Assembly: GCA_019634195.1 (NCBI GenBank)
Contig: JAHQVV010000014.1
Location: 1-41,455 of the forward strand
Length of the DNA stretch: 41,455 nt
Reading direction: 5' to 3'
DNA from: Phycisphaeraceae bacterium
GTDB lineage: Bacteria; Planctomycetota; Phycisphaerae; Phycisphaerales; Phycisphaeraceae
In this document: one piece after another, positions 6,504 through 26,032 of the stretch
Position numbering within the stretch: the stretch's first letter is position 1
Layout: each line of letters starts with the position of its first letter
Position numbers and translations under genes: made by a program
The notes under the pieces: generated by a model
What the model saw: only the letters and a program-made list of their open reading frames with translations
What the model was told of the DNA's origin: nothing
Database searches by the model: none

Positions 6504-8504
6504 ATGTCCGAATCGTCTAACATCGAATCGACCCTCTCCGAAGATCGCCACTTCCCCCCGCCGGCCGAGTTCGCGCAGCAGGCCCACCTCAAGTCGGTTG
6601 ACGGATACAAGGCATTGCACAAGCGTTCCATCGAGGACCCCGAGGGGTTCTGGACCGAAGAAGCGAGCAACCAGTACTGGTTCAAGCCCTGGGACAAGGT
6701 CCTTGAATGGAACGCCCCGGACGCCAAGTGGTTCGTCGGCGGCAAGGCCAACCTCTGCTACAACGCGGTGGACCGCCAGGTCTCCGAGGGCCACGGCGAC
6801 GCCACGGCCATCATCTGGGAAGCCGAACCCATGGACGAGCGCGGCGAGCCCATTGTCACCAAGCTCACCTACCACGACCTGATGGTCGAAACCGCCAAGT
6901 TCGCCAACGCGCTGAAAGCCAAGGGCGTCAAGCAGGGCGACGTCGTCACCATCTACATGGGCATGGTCCCGGAGCTCGCGATCGCCACCCTCGCCTGCGC
7001 CCGCATCGGCGCGGTCCACTCCGTCATCTTCGGCGGGTTCTCCTCGCAAGCCATCAAAGACCGTGTCGAAGACGGCGACTCCAAAATCATCATCACCTGC
7101 GACGGCTCGTACCGCCGAGGCAAAGTCGTCCCCCTCAAAGACAACGTCGACGAAGCGGCCGCGCAGACCGACCTCGTCGACACCGTCATCGTCTACCAGC
7201 GCTGCAACAACGACATCGCATGGACCGAGGGACGAGATGTCTGGTGGCGCGACGCGATGAACGCCGTCGATGACCACTGCCCCTGCGAAGAGATGGACTC
7301 CGAGGACCTCGCGTTCATCCTCTACACCTCCGGCTCCACCGGCAAGCCCAAGGGCATCATGCACACCACCGGCGGGTACATGGTCTGGGCAGCCATGACC
7401 TCGCGCCTCACCTTCGATCTGCATGCAGGCGACGAATCGGAAGTCTACTGGTGCACCGCAGACATCGGCTGGATCACCGGGCACACCTACATCCTCTACG
7501 GCATCCTGCCCAACCGCGTCCCCACCATCATGTACGAGGGCGCGCCCAACCACCCCGCACCCGACCGTTTATGGGATATGGTCGAGCGCCACAAGGTCAC
7601 CAAGTTCTACACCGCCCCGACCGCCATCCGCGCCTTCATGAAATGGGGCGATGAACACCCCCGCAAGCACAATCTTTCTTCTCTAAAAGTGCTCGGCACC
7701 GTCGGCGAACCCATCAACCCCGAAGCATGGATGTGGTACCACAACGAGATCGGCGGCGGCAACTGCCCCATCGCCGATACCTGGTGGCAGACCGAAACCG
7801 GCGGGCACATGCTCACCCCCCTGCCCGGCGTCACCACCACCACCCCCGGAAGCTGCTGCCAACCCATGATCGGCGTCGATGCGGCCGTCGTAAACTCCGA
7901 AGGCGAAGAGGTCGGCACCAACGAGGGCGGCATCCTCGTCATCCGCAAGCCCTGGCCCGGCATGCTCCGCGGGATCTACGGCGACCGCGACCGCTACATC
8001 GATACCTACTGGTCCAAGTTCCCCATCGAGAAGGGTTACTACGTCCCCGCCGACGGCGCCCGCGTCGATGAGAACGGCAACTTCTGGATCATGGGCCGCA
8101 TCGATGATGTCATCGTCGTCGCCGGCCACAACATCGGCACGATGGAAGTCGAGTCCACCCTCGTCGCCGAAGGCACGATCGCCGAGGCCGCCGTGGTGGG
8201 TTACCCCCACGACGTCAAGGGCAACGGCATCGCCGCCTTCTGCATCCCCAAAGGCGACACCCCCGCCCCCGGAAGTGACGAAGCCGCGGCCCTGAAAAAA
8301 CAACTCACCGCCTACTGCGCCAAAGAAATGGGCGCCATCTGCAAGCCCGACCAGATCCGCTTCACGCAGGCGTTGCCGAAGACGCGCTCCGGCAAGATCA
8401 TGCGCCGGCTCTTACGCGACATCGCCGCCGGCAAAGAAATCACATCAGATGTATCGACGCTGGAAGACAAGTCGATCGTGGAGAAGCTGCAGGCGTCAGA
8501 GTGA
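6504..8504 (+). CDS. acs: acetyl-CoA synthetase (AMP-forming)
   Basis: This is a 666-residue cytosolic enzyme that activates acetate with ATP and CoA to acetyl-CoA. Motifs run in order: the ATP-binding YTSGSTGKPKG (about 274-284), WWQTETGG, the C-terminal-domain hinge region and GHNIGTMEVES, and PKTRSGKIMRR near the C-terminus. Lys631 of that last motif is the conserved catalytic lysine, which is inactivated by acetylation in the family. The ATG at 6504 (MSESSNIE) is chosen over an upstream frame that would translate the REPIN. It is monocistronic and divergent from pyrH. A TATACT hexamer at 6461 is a possible -10 box, but I see no good -35. Confidence 0.96.
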   Translation: MSESSNIESTLSEDRHFPPPAEFAQQAHLKSVDGYKALHKRSIEDPEGFWTEEASNQYWFKPWDKVLEWNAPDAKWFVGGKANLCYNAVDRQVSEGHGDATAIIWEAEPMDERGEPIVTKLTYHDLMVETAKFANALKAKGVKQGDVVTIYMGMVPELAIATLACARIGAVHSVIFGGFSSQAIKDRVEDGDSKIIITCDGSYRRGKVVPLKDNVDEAAAQTDLVDTVIVYQRCNNDIAWTEGRDVWWRDAMNAVDDHCPCEEMDSEDLAFILYTSGSTGKPKGIMHTTGGYMVWAAMTSRLTFDLHAGDESEVYWCTADIGWITGHTYILYGILPNRVPTIMYEGAPNHPAPDRLWDMVERHKVTKFYTAPTAIRAFMKWGDEHPRKHNLSSLKVLGTVGEPINPEAWMWYHNEIGGGNCPIADTWWQTETGGHMLTPLPGVTTTTPGSCCQPMIGVDAAVVNSEGEEVGTNEGGILVIRKPWPGMLRGIYGDRDRYIDTYWSKFPIEKGYYVPADGARVDENGNFWIMGRIDDVIVVAGHNIGTMEVESTLVAEGTIAEAAVVGYPHDVKGNGIAAFCIPKGDTPAPGSDEAAALKKQLTAYCAKEMGAICKPDQIRFTQALPKTRSGKIMRRLLRDIAAGKEITSDVSTLEDKSIVEKLQASE

Positions 8505-19412: not shown

Positions 19413-22367
19413 ATGTGTTTGCAACATCATCCGGAAGCCAACCCCTTGCATGAGTTGGAGTACAACGCGGCGGACGAGCAGATGATGCTGCCCACCTGGG
19501 TCACGCGGCCGACGGTGATGGTGCAGCTACTCGTCTCGACCTCGTTTGTGCTGGCCTGGCTGAGCGTCGAGGTCATCTCGCAGAATTTCTTGACGTTTCA
19601 GTCGGAGAGCGGCGGGTCCGTAAGTGGCTGGTACCCGACGGCGGGTCTCGGCGTGGCGCTGTTGTGGGCATTGGGGCTGCGGTATGCGTGGGTGATCGTG
19701 CCGACGGCGCTGCTTGGCCAGATGGGCGTATGGGGATACGAATTTGCGCCGTCGCTGTTGCTCGCGATGATCAAAGCAATGACGTACAGCAGCGCGGCGG
19801 TGGTGCTGCGCCGGGCGTTGCCGCCGGGCGCCCTGCCCGCTCGGCCGATGCAGATCGGCAACATGATCGCGACGATGCTCGGCTGCGCCGCGTTTACGGC
19901 GGCGGCCTGCGTATCACTGCTGGTCACCGCCGGCCTGATCAAAACCGAGGAGATGTTGGACGCGACCATCGGCTGGACGGTCGGTGACGCGATCGGCATC
20001 CTGGTCACCGCCCCGCTGATGGTGCTGATCGTCGCGCCGACGATCTGCGATGCGCTCTGTAAGCACCGCGACGAGGCGAAGCAGCGATATACCGAGGCCA
20101 TGGGCAACCGGACGCTTGCGTCACAGTGGACCCCCTGGCTATTGATCATTGGCACGGCCGTGGGCATGGCGCTGCTGGCGAGCGTTCCGGAAGAGTACGA
20201 CCCGCGCGTGTACTACCTCGGCTTCGTGCTGCTGCCGGCGCTGGCGATGCGGTACAAGTTGGCCGGCGCATTGATCGGGCTGTTGCTGGTCAGCTTTGCC
20301 GGGATGTTCACCGCAATCTTGCAGGGCATCGGCATGCCGGCGCTGACGGACCTGCAGCTCATCATGATCGCTTTGGGGATCAGCACGATCCTGGTCGGAT
20401 CGTTCGCGGTGATGCGCAGCCTGACGGAGCTCAAGCGGCAGGCGGAGCACCGCTGGGCAACAATGGCGATCCGCGGCTCGGGCATGGGGCGGTGGCACTG
20501 GGAGGTCGGCAGCGACGAATTCAACACGGACTTCATCCTGACCGACGCGTTTGGGTATCGCCGGGACAAGGTGATCCCGCTGGTGGGTTGGTGGACGCAG
20601 CGCATCCATGCCGAGGACGTTCGACTCAACCAAACCGAGATGGCTAAGCTGCTGCAAGGCAAGAGTGATTATTTCGAGGTCGAGAACCGCATGCTCGCCG
20701 CCGACGGCACGTGGGGCTGGTTCTATAGCCAGGGCACCGTCATCGAGCGCGACGCGCAAGGCAAGCCCAAGCGCATCGCGGGCACGCACCACGACATCAC
20801 CGAGCGCAAGGAGCTGGAGCGCATCCGGGCCGACGCCGAGGCGACCCACCGCTCCGAGCAGCGCTTCCGCACGCTGGCGGACGGCGCACCGGTCGCCATC
20901 TTCCAGACCGACGCCAAGGGCGTGTTCCTCTACGTCAATCCAACCTGGTGCATGATCACCGGGCTGGCGCAGACCGACGCGCTGTACCGCAGCGCCGCCG
21001 CCTTCGCGCACACCGACGACCGGGACGCCGTCACCGACCACTGGGCCACCGCCGTGCAGACCGGCACGCCCGTGAGCATCGAGCACCGCGTCGTCCGTGA
21101 CGACGGCAGCGTGCTCTGGCTGCAGACGCAAGCGACCCCCATGAAGCACAACGGCGTCATGCTCGGGTTCGTCGGCACGGGCGTCGACGTCACGCCCTAC
21201 CGCCAGGCCATGGCCATGATCGCCGACTCCGAGGCCCGCTACCGCACCCTCGCCGACCACGCCTACGACATGCTCTGGCGCGTCGACGCCGAGGCGAACT
21301 TCACCTACGTCTCGCCCAGCATCACAAAGCTCATGGGCTACACCCCCGAGGAGATGGTGAACACCAACGCCTTCGACTACTTCCACGAAGAAGACATCGA
21401 ACGTGTCCGTGGCAAGCACGCCGCGCTCTCGCCCGACGAGCCCGAGTTCCACGATGTCCACCGCTACCGCTGCAAGGACGGCAGCTACATCGTCTTCGAG
21501 GCCGTCGGCCGGCTTGTCGTGCCTGATCCGAACGAGACCAAAGACGAATCAAACGACGGCCAGCCCTACATCACCGGCATCTCCCGCGACGTCACACAGC
21601 GCGTCGAGGGCGAACAGATCCGCCGCGAGCTCGAAGAAAAACTCGCCCGCTCGCAGAAGCTCGACGCCATCGGCACCTTCGCCACCGGCATCGCGCACGA
21701 CTTCCGCAACTCGCTTATGGCGATCAACCTCTCGGCCCAGTCCGCCGCACGCAAGCTCGAACCCGACCACGCCGCCCAGCCCGCGCTGAACACCGTCGAG
21801 GAGGCCGTCGCGCAGGCCATGCAGGTCACCCAGTCCCTGCTCACCTTCGCGCGTGGCCAAGGCGCCGCCAAACGCCCGACCGACCTGACCCAGCTCATCA
21901 AAGACAACGCCCGCCTGCTCGAGACCGTGCTGCCCCCCAGCATCTCGCTGCAAATCGAATGCCCCGACACCCCCTTGCGCATCAAGGCCAACGCAAGCGA
22001 GATCCAGCAGACCCTGCTCAACCTTGTCATGAACGCCAAGGACGCGATCCCCGGCGAGGGCACCATCACCCTCACGCTCAAGCAGGGCAGCGACACCGCC
22101 TTGCTGACGATCAAAGACACCGGCGTCGGCATGCCCCAAGAAGTGCTTCGCCGCGCACTCGAGCCGTTCTACACCACCAAGGCCAGGCTCAAAGGCACCG
22201 GCCTCGGCTTGTCCCAAGCCCACGGCATCGTCTCCGATCACGGCGGGGAGATCACACTCGATTCCAAACCCAACCTCGGCACCACGATCACCATCACCCT
22301 GCCGCTTATCGACAGCAACCCAAGATCACAAACCACTGAACCCAAGACGGAGGCCACCACGACATGA
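19413..22367 (+). CDS. MASE1-PAS sensor histidine kinase
   Basis: This is a 984-residue inner-membrane kinase from the ATG at 19413. An ATG at 19482 is an alternative, and a start at 19347 would translate the REPIN. It has about eight or nine membrane segments of MASE1 type (about 30-340), including GWYPTAGLGVALLWALGLRYAW. Three PAS domains follow (about 350-470, 480-600 and 605-735, each ending in DITER or DVT-like blocks). The dimerisation helix has the phospho-acceptor in GIAHDFRNSLMAINLS (His near 762). The ATPase has NLVMNAKDAI, DTGVGMP and GTGLGLSQAHG. The H-box reads HDFRN where HDFNN is usual. The stop overlaps the next gene by ATGA, so it very likely phosphorylates that regulator. 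The ligand is unknown. Confidence 0.88.
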   Translation: MCLQHHPEANPLHELEYNAADEQMMLPTWVTRPTVMVQLLVSTSFVLAWLSVEVISQNFLTFQSESGGSVSGWYPTAGLGVALLWALGLRYAWVIVPTALLGQMGVWGYEFAPSLLLAMIKAMTYSSAAVVLRRALPPGALPARPMQIGNMIATMLGCAAFTAAACVSLLVTAGLIKTEEMLDATIGWTVGDAIGILVTAPLMVLIVAPTICDALCKHRDEAKQRYTEAMGNRTLASQWTPWLLIIGTAVGMALLASVPEEYDPRVYYLGFVLLPALAMRYKLAGALIGLLLVSFAGMFTAILQGIGMPALTDLQLIMIALGISTILVGSFAVMRSLTELKRQAEHRWATMAIRGSGMGRWHWEVGSDEFNTDFILTDAFGYRRDKVIPLVGWWTQRIHAEDVRLNQTEMAKLLQGKSDYFEVENRMLAADGTWGWFYSQGTVIERDAQGKPKRIAGTHHDITERKELERIRADAEATHRSEQRFRTLADGAPVAIFQTDAKGVFLYVNPTWCMITGLAQTDALYRSAAAFAHTDDRDAVTDHWATAVQTGTPVSIEHRVVRDDGSVLWLQTQATPMKHNGVMLGFVGTGVDVTPYRQAMAMIADSEARYRTLADHAYDMLWRVDAEANFTYVSPSITKLMGYTPEEMVNTNAFDYFHEEDIERVRGKHAALSPDEPEFHDVHRYRCKDGSYIVFEAVGRLVVPDPNETKDESNDGQPYITGISRDVTQRVEGEQIRRELEEKLARSQKLDAIGTFATGIAHDFRNSLMAINLSAQSAARKLEPDHAAQPALNTVEEAVAQAMQVTQSLLTFARGQGAAKRPTDLTQLIKDNARLLETVLPPSISLQIECPDTPLRIKANASEIQQTLLNLVMNAKDAIPGEGTITLTLKQGSDTALLTIKDTGVGMPQEVLRRALEPFYTTKARLKGTGLGLSQAHGIVSDHGGEITLDSKPNLGTTITITLPLIDSNPRSQTTEPKTEATTT

Positions 22368-23050
22368 CCGACACCGAGCAAAGCGCCGAAACCAAGACCA
22401 AGATCCTACTCGTCGACGACCACATCATCGTCCGCGACTCGCTGGCCCGCCGGCTGGAAGACGAGCCGGACCTGGAGGTCCCCCACACCGCGGGCGACGC
22501 CGACGAGGGGCTCGCGCTGGCCGAGGCCAACGGCTTTGACGTCATCGTCATGGACATCAATATGCCCGGCATGTCATGCTTCGAGGCCGCTAAACGCCTG
22601 CAGACCAGCCACCCCGACCTGCCGCTCGTTTTCTTAAGCGCCTATTGGAACGACGCGTTCATCGAGCAGGCCCAGGGCGTCGGGGCCGTCGGCCTGCTGA
22701 GCAAATCCGACGAGCCGGACCTCTTGATCAACGCGATCCGCACCGTCGTCGACGGCGGCGTGTTCCTCTCCGACGAGGTCCGCGGCCGCTTCGAATCCGA
22801 AACCGCCGCGGACAACCCCGACGAATCCAAGACCAAGCTCAGCACCCTGACCCCGCGCGAGGTGGACGTGCTCCGCTGGGTGGGCATGGGCCAATCCCGA
22901 AAACAGATGGCCGCGCAGCTGGGCATCAGCGAGAACACCGTCGCCGTCCACACCAACCGCATCATGCGCAAACTCGATATCCACGACCGCGTGGGGCTGG
23001 CCAGGTTCTCGATCAAGATCGGCCTGAGCCCGTTGGATGAGCCGAGCTGA
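22364..23050 (+). CDS. NarL/LuxR-type response regulator
   Basis: This is a 228-residue protein with a receiver domain (acidic pair DD at about 18-19, phospho-acceptor Asp64 in VIVMDINMPGM, Lys114 in LLSKSD) and a C-terminal LuxR-type helix-turn-helix (about 165-225: LTPREVDVLRWVGMGQ, then ISENTVAVHTNRIMRKL). It binds DNA as the output partner of the kinase whose gene overlaps its start. The stop at 23048-23050 abuts the stop codon of the convergent gene directly, with no space for a terminator. The target genes are unknown. Confidence 0.93.
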   Translation: MTDTEQSAETKTKILLVDDHIIVRDSLARRLEDEPDLEVPHTAGDADEGLALAEANGFDVIVMDINMPGMSCFEAAKRLQTSHPDLPLVFLSAYWNDAFIEQAQGVGAVGLLSKSDEPDLLINAIRTVVDGGVFLSDEVRGRFESETAADNPDESKTKLSTLTPREVDVLRWVGMGQSRKQMAAQLGISENTVAVHTNRIMRKLDIHDRVGLARFSIKIGLSPLDEPS

Positions 23051-24352
23051 TTATGAGCTGACTTGGTACGCTCGGTCGATGTCGCGGGCTCGGCCAAGTA
23101 TGGGAAGAGCAAGCCAAGCGATCGCGGCGAAAGGCACAAAGAACAGATAACTCACATCCGCCAACCATCGTGATCGGATCTGACTTGCGATCCGTGGTCC
23201 AACGCGGTCGTAGACCCGCCGCATCGATCGGTGCAGCCTTGGGAAACGCGCGGCGATCAACAACTCCGCTGCCTTGAGGGTGCGCATCTGTTGGGTGACC
23301 AGCACGACTCGGCCGCCGGGGAATCGGACGGGGGTGGCGCGGGTGAGCCAGCGGTGGCCGTGGGCCGAGGCGGTGCAGGCGTAGCAGGACGGGTCCGTGG
23401 TGGGCAGCGAGTTGTAGACGATCTGAGCCTGGCTGATAGCGATGGGCCAGGCGGCGACGTAGCCCAGCGCGGTCGCGGCGACGGGGATCGGCTTGGATCG
23501 CTCAGCGGGCTGGCTGAAGTCGGTGCGGTATACCCGGCACAGCGCGGCACTCATGCAAAGCAGCATCAGGTACGGCCCGCCGAGGAGCACGACCATGAGG
23601 ACCATGCCCCGCGAGGCGACGCCGATACCAATCAGGGCCGCGATCGTCAGCCCCACGACGACGAGCGACACCTGCCAGTTGCGGCGCTGCCGCGGCTTAG
23701 GCTTGCGCGTCGCGTCCAGCGCGCGTTGACTGATGACCACGGCCGCGAGGATGCCCATGGGGATCAGCCCGAACACACAAGCGATCCAGAACTGCTCCGA
23801 CAGACCAAGCAGGCCGACGCTCAGGATGATCTGGTACTGCACGCCCAGCAAACAACCAAGCCAGAGGCCGATACGGACCCACCACAACCGGCCCATCGCC
23901 ATTGGCGCGGAGAGGAGTACGACTAACGCGATATAGGACCAGAGGAGGAAGGGGTAAAACGCCCACATCGCCCGGCCAGCGAGCATGGTCCCGACGTAAT
24001 CGCGCAGTTGACCGGACTGCCAATCGACGGTGAGTGGCTGCATAGGATCAAAGGACGCGAGGAGCACGACCATCCCCGGGCCAAACATCCCGAAGAGCAG
24101 ACCGACGATCTGCGAGACGGGGTTGAGGGTGTGCAGGGAGAACGGCCGGGCCTTACGCCCGGCGCGGTGCTCGAGCGTGGTGGCGATCGGCATGCCGCAC
24201 TCGGGGCAGGCGACATCCGTCGCGAGTGTCCGCAGGTTGTAGTCGCAGGACCAGCACGGCAGGTCCGAAGCGATGCGTCCGGTGTCGTCGAGAGTGACGC
24301 CGGGGACCCGTGGTCGGGGTCGGGGTAGGTGATCGGGTGTGACGGTGGACAT
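23051..24352 (-). CDS. zinc-ribbon multi-pass membrane protein (DUF6688-like)
   Basis: This is a 433-residue protein from the ATG at 24352 (MSTVTPDH). The longer open frame upstream has a Pro/Arg-rich leader unlike a protein start. The N-terminal part has a four-Cys ribbon, CWSCDYNL...CPECG, a signature I know from planctomycete membrane proteins. About eight membrane segments follow. The C-terminal part has CYACTASAHGHRWL, MRTLKAAELLIAARFPRLHRSMRRVYD and RWLADVSY, which I recall as DUF6688-like. No function is known. It lies convergent to the two-component pair. Its upstream DNA (24353-24773) contains a terminator and promoters that could form an attenuator. Confidence 0.65.
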   Translation of the reverse strand: MSTVTPDHLPRPRPRVPGVTLDDTGRIASDLPCWSCDYNLRTLATDVACPECGMPIATTLEHRAGRKARPFSLHTLNPVSQIVGLLFGMFGPGMVVLLASFDPMQPLTVDWQSGQLRDYVGTMLAGRAMWAFYPFLLWSYIALVVLLSAPMAMGRLWWVRIGLWLGCLLGVQYQIILSVGLLGLSEQFWIACVFGLIPMGILAAVVISQRALDATRKPKPRQRRNWQVSLVVVGLTIAALIGIGVASRGMVLMVVLLGGPYLMLLCMSAALCRVYRTDFSQPAERSKPIPVAATALGYVAAWPIAISQAQIVYNSLPTTDPSCYACTASAHGHRWLTRATPVRFPGGRVVLVTQQMRTLKAAELLIAARFPRLHRSMRRVYDRVGPRIASQIRSRWLADVSYLFFVPFAAIAWLALPILGRARDIDRAYQVSS

Positions 24353-24623
24353 GAGGGCTGGGGTGGGGGGCGTCGGCGGGCTATGATACGGGACGGGTTT
24401 CGTTGTGGCGGGTGTTCGGTGCAATGGTGAGAGGACACACCATGCAGTGAAAGGTGGCGGCTGATGGCTGGTCGGTGCTGGCGTTGGGGTGCGTTCGCAC
24501 CCTCGGCATACTCCACACGCGAACGGCTTGAGGCGGGCGGTGGACCGAGGGCCCAATCTCCCAGGAAAGAAGCGACCAGTGAGCGATGGATGGACCGGGG
24601 CGGTCAGAGCCTAGGTGTACGCA

Positions 24624-24664
24624 CAAAAAAACCCGCGTCAGCAGCCGTTAGGCGCCGACGCGAG
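24624..24664 (-). terminator. strong intrinsic terminator (minus strand)
   Basis: On the minus strand CTCGCGTC pairs with GACGCGGG (one G-T pair). The stem continues inward through about six more pairs with one bulge to a UAAC loop, and seven T follow at once. It ends either the transcript of the small gene at 24774-25127 or a short RNA starting near 24686. Confidence 0.8.
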
Positions 24665-24686
24665 CTTCCGGGGGCTAGGTAGTACA
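24624..24686 (-). ncRNA. candidate small RNA or attenuator leader of about 60 nt
   Basis: A promoter of good fit (24692-24720) would start transcription near 24685, and the terminator ends it about 60 bases later. The free 5' part has a run of five C, a kind of site known in some small RNAs that pair with ribosome sites. An ATG at 24687-24685 also opens a 27-codon frame through the hairpin, so a leader peptide is possible. Expression is not shown. Confidence 0.35.
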
Positions 24687-24691
24687 TTAAA

Positions 24692-24735
24692 ACTATAGTT
24701 CGTCTAGATTATGACGTCAAGAGTTTGTTCGTCAA
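24692..24735 (-). promoter_or_regulatory. two overlapping sigma70-like promoters with AT-rich upstream tract
   Basis: Minus strand: TTGACG (24720-24715), 17 bases, then TATAGT (24697-24692). A second pair is TTGACG (24735-24730), 16 bases, then CATAAT (24713-24708). Each hexamer matches consensus at five of six bases. The 40 bases upstream are almost all A/T, like an UP element. Confidence 0.5.
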
Positions 24736-24773
24736 TTTTTAATAGTTATTTTAAATATTTGATAATCAAACGC

Positions 24774-25127
24774 TTACGAGAGGTCTTTTTGATGCTGATA
24801 GGCCCCTGCGACATCATCGAGCAACGATTGAAGGTCCTCGGGCAGGGGTTTATCGCCGAATCTCGTCTTAATTGCATCGCGATGGCGGCGGATCAAGACG
24901 CCCGCCCGGTCTAAGCCCAGGGCCTGTTCCGCCGAGCTGAGCTCGTCCATCTGACCCAACGCAAACCACACCGCCTGCAGCGTGATGATGTCCGTCACAG
25001 ACCGGCGCACCAGGCCCGGTTCGCCGACCTCGGGCAGGGCCACCGCACTGCGGGCAAAGTCGGTCCACCTTGCCAGCAGCACGGCCCAGGTCAAACGGTC
25101 GGGTTCAAGCGGCTGAGCTTCTGTCAT
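24774..25127 (-). CDS. small hypothetical protein, mostly helical
   Basis: This is a 117-residue protein from the ATG at 25127 (MTEAQPLEPDRL). A start five codons upstream is possible. The sequence is mostly alpha-helical with a central stretch GLVRRSVTDIITLQAVWFALGQMDEL and a C-terminal RRHRDAIKTRFGDKPLPEDLQSLLDDV. There is no signal peptide or membrane segment, and I recognise no family. It is divergent from the YdjY gene, with about 85 bases between. The DNA turns AT-rich immediately after its stop codon. Confidence 0.5.
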   Translation of the reverse strand: MTEAQPLEPDRLTWAVLLARWTDFARSAVALPEVGEPGLVRRSVTDIITLQAVWFALGQMDELSSAEQALGLDRAGVLIRRHRDAIKTRFGDKPLPEDLQSLLDDVAGAYQHQKDLS

Positions 25128-25213
25128 GTGTCCGGGGGCCATGCAAAGCGTGCATTAGCCCGCTCTCACTTCACCTATGATAAACAATCGGACCACCATA
25201 AAAGGAGCCCGCT

Positions 25214-26032
25214 ATGCGGATGAACTCGATTGCCGGCTTACTCGTGCTGGCATTGCTGGCGATACCCGGCACGATCACGCGGGGCCAAGCCGAGGCAAAG
25301 CCCGCAGAGGACGCGGGGGACGCAAAAAAAATCGACCCGATCGCCGAGGCGATCAAGCAGGTCAACGAGCAGGACAACGGCGTGACCATCAACGCGGACG
25401 GCAGGTACATCGACGTCTCGGCGACGGTCTGCCTGCGGCGTGGCGAGTTCCTGGAGATGTTTGCCTGCACGAAGGATACGCGGGAGCACGAGTCGATCCT
25501 GGTGGTCGACGCGGCGCCCTCGACCATGCACCTGGGGTTGTTGCTACTGGGCCTGGAGCCGGGCAAGCCGCTGTCATACGACAGGAAGTTTGACCCGCCG
25601 AAGCTTGTACCCGCAAAGGGCCCCGAGGTGGCGGTGTTCATCGTGGTCAAGGCGGACGATGTGGAGCGGGAGATCCCCGCGAACCGGTGGGTGCAGGACA
25701 ACAAGACCAAGGAGATGAAAAAGGGCAACACTTGGCTGTTCGCTGGCTCGCAGTTCGCGGAGTTCCAAGACAAGCAGGTCTACCAGGCGGACCTCAACGG
25801 GTCGGCGATCTCGCTGGTGAACTTCGGCGACGACCTGCTGACCCTGCCCAACAAACTCACCGACGCCAACGATAGCCACTCCAAGGTCTGGGCACCCCGC
25901 ACCGACGCGATCCCGAAGGTGGGGACCAACGTCGTAATCCGCCTCAAGCCCACGCCAACAGAGCAAGACAAAGCCAAGGACGCCAAGAACCCCCCGCCGC
26001 TGCCGGTACCCGCGGATGAGGCCAAGCAGTAG
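25214..26032 (+). CDS. secreted YdjY-domain protein
   Basis: This is a 272-residue protein with a signal peptide (about 1-25) and a strong AGGAG ribosome site before the ATG. The family pattern is clear: FACTKDTREHESILVVDAAPSTMHLGLLLLGLEPGKP, then EVAVFIVVK, NRWVQDNKTKEMKKGNTWLFAGS, YQADLNGSAISLVNFGDDLLTLPN. YdjY domains occur in exported proteins of many planctomycetes and some enterobacteria, and their role is unknown. The tail after residue 240 is Lys/Pro-rich and probably disordered. The next gene has its own promoter, so it is probably monocistronic. Confidence 0.8.
   Translation: MRMNSIAGLLVLALLAIPGTITRGQAEAKPAEDAGDAKKIDPIAEAIKQVNEQDNGVTINADGRYIDVSATVCLRRGEFLEMFACTKDTREHESILVVDAAPSTMHLGLLLLGLEPGKPLSYDRKFDPPKLVPAKGPEVAVFIVVKADDVEREIPANRWVQDNKTKEMKKGNTWLFAGSQFAEFQDKQVYQADLNGSAISLVNFGDDLLTLPNKLTDANDSHSKVWAPRTDAIPKVGTNVVIRLKPTPTEQDKAKDAKNPPPLPVPADEAKQ

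Follow-up and report, generated by a model that had tools for sequence, protein, structure and literature searches.

A minus-strand unit in the window, by which we mean the whole 41,455-nucleotide stretch of contig JAHQVV010000014.1 from a Phycisphaeraceae bacterium that was analysed here, is very probably a conserved small-RNA gene. The predicted RNA has its own promoter, its own intrinsic terminator, and an exposed conserved seed outside any conserved reading frame; comparison with relatives showed a predicted unit of approximately 61 nt, delimited by promoter P2 and the terminator, in which the core GCCCCCGGAAG is fixed and the stem changes by compensatory pairs. Our overall reading, to which we assign a probability of roughly 0.65, is that the unit belongs to an undescribed small-RNA family of the Phycisphaerales and is a putative regulator acting in trans, independently of Hfq. 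The small RNAs of the Planctomycetota are almost unknown; a family found throughout most of an order, with its fixed 11-nt core and as many as 12 copies per genome, in hosts without detectable Hfq, would open a first way into the study of post-transcriptional control in these bacteria.

Results

The first-pass annotation, which was made from the letters of the window, had described an A/T tract, two TTGACG promoters on the minus strand, and a terminator with seven T about 60 nt farther on, and all of these details were found (Table 1). The tract consists almost exclusively of A and T. The two sigma-70-like promoters overlap, and each matches the consensus at 10 of 12 positions. A consensus scan of a 5-kb region returned six promoter-like sites, against 1.0 ± 1.2 in shuffled sequences; that scan alone does not settle whether the unit exceeds chance, and it is because the unit is conserved that we consider it to do so. 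We place the 5′ end of the RNA 7 nt past the −10 box of P2. The RNA from 24686 to 24627 folds with −30 kcal/mol (z −3.6), and none of 200 shuffled sequences was equally stable. Its terminator stem carries the loop TAAC and one bulged U, and the bulge is probably the reason that a simple terminator scan missed it. Immediately 5′ of the terminator lies GCCCCCGGAAG, most of which is predicted to be unpaired: CCCCCGG, which includes the run of five C at 24674-24670, is largely free, and AAG is able to pair with the U-run. No tRNA was found in the window, and no Rfam family matched the window at its gathering score; when 18 homologous loci were compared with Rfam 15 at E ≤ 1, the unit was again without a match. 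The RNA unit is outside every known RNA family of Rfam 15.

Table 1. Features of the window at and around the predicted RNA gene
Feature	Position	Strand	Basis or remark
CCCCCGGAAG/CTTCCGGGGG copies	7843-7852 and 8266-8275		
LuxR-type response regulator gene	22364..23050	+	accompanies the RNA in each of G001-G004; syntenic marker
Zinc-ribbon membrane gene, DUF6688_C domain	23051..24352	-	missing from the interval between RNA and regulator gene in G001, G002, G003
Predicted small RNA, ~61 nt	24625..24685	-	fold, conservation, promoter position, covariance-model survey
U-run of intrinsic terminator, seven T	24625..24631	-	sequence
Terminator hairpin, stem covarying across relatives	24632..24664	-	fold and covariation
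Conserved 11-mer GCCCCCGGAAG	24665..24675	-	conservation and predicted fold
Promoter P2, TTGACG (24720-24715), spacer 17, TATAGT (24697-24692)	24692..24720	-	promoter scan and conservation in G002, G004
Promoter P1, TTGACG (24735-24730), spacer 16, CATAAT (24713-24708)	24708..24735	-	promoter scan; not conserved in the genus
A/T-rich tract, possible UP element, 5′ of the promoters	24736..24772	-	sequence
122-aa gene, directly upstream of RNA	24774..25142	-	conserved in 49 of 61 relatives; adjoins RNA in 4 of 5 genus members
YdjY-domain protein gene	25214..26032	+	commonest RNA neighbour across the order; context, outside the RNA gene

When positions 24600-24790 were compared by BLASTN with 61 related genomes, each of the other four genus members gave a match, and three more genomes of the family gave terminator-like matches, one of these genomes having two copies. 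A further match of 14 nt, in G018, was discarded as a chance match in coding DNA. The conserved portion comprises GCCCCCGGAAGCYCG, the stem, and the U-run, rather than the stem alone, and the differences among the stems are compensatory. A strict pattern matched 16 of 121 genomes, and a reversed control pattern matched none. Among 21 sequences the helix is 95.8% paired, with double changes at 9 of its 16 pairs; stem covariation in this set was 0.504, against 0.199 after shuffling, and in a set of 70 loci it was 0.558, against 0.181.

The sequence 5′ of the stem is better conserved than the stem itself, and CTTTG is frequent ahead of the core in the RNA loci. The covariance model R1 recruits homologs with an entirely different stem and an identical 5′ part, CAACTTTGCCCCCGGAAGC. 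Since such homologs keep the unpaired CAACTTTGCCCCCGGAAGC when the whole stem has been replaced, selection acts on the exposed sequence; the unpaired 5′ part is thus the conserved signal, and the terminator can be exchanged. The 11-mer was the motif by which the 70 loci were collected, and its invariance in that set arises partly by construction; the BLASTN matches and the homologs recruited by R1 are evidence for the core that is independent of the collecting motif.

Promoters recur as well. A sigma-70 score of at least 7 was predicted computationally within 105 nt upstream of the core in 89% of the 70 loci, compared with 25% when the sequences were shuffled and 20% on the opposite strand. 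The loci form two classes by the spacing between the −10 box and the core, one of 14-20 nt, to which the window belongs (16 nt), and one of 24-65 nt. In the short class the predicted RNA is approximately 60 nt long and starts just ahead of the core. In the long class a hairpin is often predicted within the additional 5′ sequence (mean z −2.1, with two thirds of the values below −1.5); roughly two thirds of the copies of the long form have such a 5′ stem-loop, and the window's short form has none. P2 is kept in G000, G002 and G004, where TATAGT lies 16-17 nt ahead of the core, and A/T-rich DNA precedes the promoter in G002 and G004 also. The double promoter that had been proposed is present in the window, but in the genus only P2 keeps its position, and P1 does not recur.

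In the five genomes of the genus (G000 to G004) the RNA occupies the same interval, beside the response regulator gene, of which the G004 stretch includes just the end; the zinc-ribbon gene intervenes only in G000 and G004. Conservation in relatives had been suggested as a check on the small-RNA reading, and the P2 hexamers, the C-run, the terminator, the synteny within the genus, and the strong covariation of the stem all bear that reading out; the P1 hexamers do not. Across the order the neighbours vary in identity and orientation, and the RNA lies beside the YdjY-domain gene in either orientation. Genes that we take, by recognition of their sequences, to be RuvC-like, QueD-like and ABC-ATPase-like recur near it. 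The 122-aa gene upstream has no match in Pfam or NCBIfam.

With a second covariance model, R2, 167 of 251 Phycisphaerales genomes were found to carry the unit, at 1-12 copies per genome; the R1 survey underestimates prevalence, R1 being bound to a single kind of terminator. With R2 the unit was present in nearly all of the sampled genomes of families f1, f3 and f6, in part of f2, and in none of the listed genomes of f5. A phylum-wide sample of 343 genomes yielded only four weak matches outside the order; the unit is essentially absent from the phylum beyond it, and a pattern search of the class gave almost the same boundary. An independent scan of named genomes for CTTTGCCCCCGGAAG followed by a later T-run returned 47 matches, 21 of them in Planctomycetota by name, mostly Phycisphaerales or Phycisphaeraceae, and one in a record titled "bacterium," which has a proper hairpin; the remaining matches are scattered over unrelated phyla, and even a weak hairpin filter retained no more than two of them. 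The possibility that the unit is a repeat element within its own genome was set aside, as that assembly, 90% complete, holds just one copy.

Discussion

Within one genome, the copies have the core in common, while promoter, 5′ hairpin, and stem vary from copy to copy. We propose that they are therefore sibling RNAs with overlapping sets of targets, placed under different controls. We think it probable that the RNA acts in trans by base pairing to mRNAs. In such a scheme, sigma-70 RNA polymerase would transcribe the unit, and the terminator hairpin would stabilise the product; the exposed CUAGCCCCCGG(AAG) would pair with G-rich complementary segments in mRNAs from other loci, CUUCCGGGGGC-like sites being the partners to be expected, and pairing without Hfq would alter the translation or decay of those mRNAs. 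A profile search for Hfq (PF17209) found it in none of 41 genomes of the order, the same search finding it in 5 of 14 known genomes that served as a control; any pairing with mRNA would therefore take place without Hfq or by way of another chaperone.

The first-pass annotation saw in the C-run a sequence aimed at ribosome-binding sites. That suggestion gained no support, as complements of the seed were not enriched at start regions in approximately 400 kb from each of three genomes, a comparison of low power in which gene starts were predicted from open reading frames only. Three ways of naming targets were tried and given up: the CCCCCGGAAG sites of the window's own genome number 61 and lie almost all within long open reading frames, in either orientation; a search for CTTCCGGGGGC followed by ATG was swamped by an iterated word that we describe below; and a candidate on L241, an open reading frame beginning MTNNTTPANASGGDPEL with GCTTCCGGGGGC at +28, is compatible with chance.

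A small RNA that binds a protein, with the 11-mer serving as ligand or sponge and no mRNA pairing, would also account for the absence of enrichment at start regions. Eleven fixed positions are long for a pairing seed alone, and the core contains GGA, a motif found in the ligands of the CsrA protein. We nonetheless consider this reading unlikely. Each RNA offers only a single GGA, which lies partly in a stem, and the same invariance is seen in the short single-stranded motifs of RNAs that do act by pairing, Yfr1 among them (PMC2190773).

Yfr1 is the closest parallel in design for the base-pairing RNA that we favour. This cyanobacterial RNA is 54-69 nt long; a stem-loop at its 5′ end is followed by 16-20 unpaired nt, within which lies an ultraconserved undecamer, and then by a terminator hairpin that is GC-rich and has a U-tail (PMC2190773). 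The predicted RNA of the Phycisphaerales is likewise very short, carries an invariant undecamer ahead of its terminator hairpin, and is spread over a whole major lineage. Yfr10, also of cyanobacteria, has the motif of Yfr1 in a different structure and synteny, the motif being the targeting element (PMC6778093), and the sibling copies described here similarly share a motif without sharing a structure. The sequences are unrelated, however (ACUCCUCACAC in Yfr1, GCCCCCGGAAG here); Yfr1 resides mostly at the guaB-trxA locus, whereas the neighbours here are the YdjY-domain gene or others; and many copies in this different phylum, the window's included, have no 5′ hairpin. The resemblance is a likeness of design and not membership. 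The Yfr2 family of cyanobacteria is multi-copy, its loci are not conserved and a single genome may hold as many as nine (PMC6778093), and its RNAs measure 89-95 nt (PMC2190773); the present family also has several copies per genome, but its sequence is unrelated, the RNA is shorter, and some copies are syntenic. The Rhodopirellula-1 motif (Weinberg et al. 2010; PMC2864571) is likewise an RNA candidate from comparative genomics, one that includes Planctomycetes; that work lists it as possibly cis-regulatory and gives it no Rfam number. One survey listed only eight distinct Rfam small RNAs for the Planctomycetes-Verrucomicrobia-Chlamydiae group (PMC9029176), and in the collection of literature that we searched there was no paper on the small RNAs or uptake words of the Phycisphaerae.

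In part of the family the core coincides with a highly iterated genomic word, which raises a new question that can be tested. In a 400-kb sample of G010 (L294-L313), CCCCCGGAAG is the most frequent 10-mer, with 96 copies against 4.0 expected (24-fold), from which we extrapolate to about 1,150 copies in that genome; in 409 kb of the window's own genome (L314-L333) there are 18 copies against 0.81 expected, a 22-fold excess, and TTCCGGGGGC is 24-fold over-represented in G041. The copies in G010 lie on both strands and in all frames, and apart from a preceding G and a following TG their flanks hold scant information. Of 25 coding copies that could be aligned, ten fall in insertions of at least three residues relative to a homolog, compared with 4.6% of random positions; the genes concerned include those that we take, by recognition, to be SdhB and Pgk. 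The sites may, too, accumulate at loops in which insertions are tolerated. The decamer behaves like an uptake-type or other DNA-level word; it may be derived from the RNA, have a binding protein in common with it, or have arisen by convergence. Three observations on repeats can be added. The decamer occurs in short tandem arrays with a period of 10 to 20 bp, for example (CCCCCGGAAGTG)n, mostly within open reading frames (L143-L146 in G020; L152 in G033). G010 and G041 have further over-represented words, such as TTTCGAGTTT, ATTAGACATT and TTGACTGATTG, which resemble tandem repeats of the heptamer to nonamer type. In the window's genome (L314-L333), a longer repeat with GTAGGACAGGC...ATTCCT supplies most of the other over-represented 10-mers.

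It is a long shot that the RNA and the dispersed decamer form one system, in which the exposed core would be the source, guide, or reader of a word that has spread in some genomes, in part through small insertions within housekeeping genes; such a system might work, for example, by RNA-templated insertion or through a protein able to recognise the word in RNA as well as in DNA. Another connection would be that the unit is kept for the dispersed word itself, an uptake-like or architecture sequence near a terminator, and that the RNA is incidental. The abundance of the decamer in G010 and in the window's genome would fit such an explanation, and in some bacteria uptake words do sit in terminators. 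We regard it as improbable, because G124 carries the RNA family and does not over-represent the word (2 copies observed, 1.1 expected), and because within the RNA the word always points the same way, lies between a promoter and a terminator, and frequently has CTTTG ahead of it, none of which, whether promoter, terminator, or CTTTG, accompanies the dispersed copies.

That the unit is simply a terminator belonging to the 122-aa gene upstream, with a promoter ahead of it by chance, seems to us equally improbable. The gene is co-directional in the window and ends 89 nt before the predicted start of the RNA, but elsewhere the unit is divergent from that gene or lies beside unrelated genes in either orientation, promoters recur in 89% of the loci, and the pre-stem sequence is more conserved than the stem. 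The annotation's other suggestion, a transcription attenuator or leader-peptide element of the zinc-ribbon gene that starts at 24352, is scarcely credible: a 27-codon frame can indeed be read directly from 24687, and both the window and G004 have the gene downstream and co-directional, but G001, G002 and G003, three of the five genus members, have the RNA with no zinc-ribbon gene beside it and the downstream gene varies, no leader frame is conserved among the 70 loci (40 are without a start codon within 25 nt ahead of the core, and the others use three frames, in 12, 11 and 8 cases), and the terminator ends approximately 270 nt before the gene, with no alternative antiterminator pairing conserved.

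For the small-RNA gene that we prefer, the sequences suggest a picture of an ancestral free-standing gene to which extra copies were added later. In the window, its terminator could additionally end transcripts of the co-directional 122-aa gene upstream.
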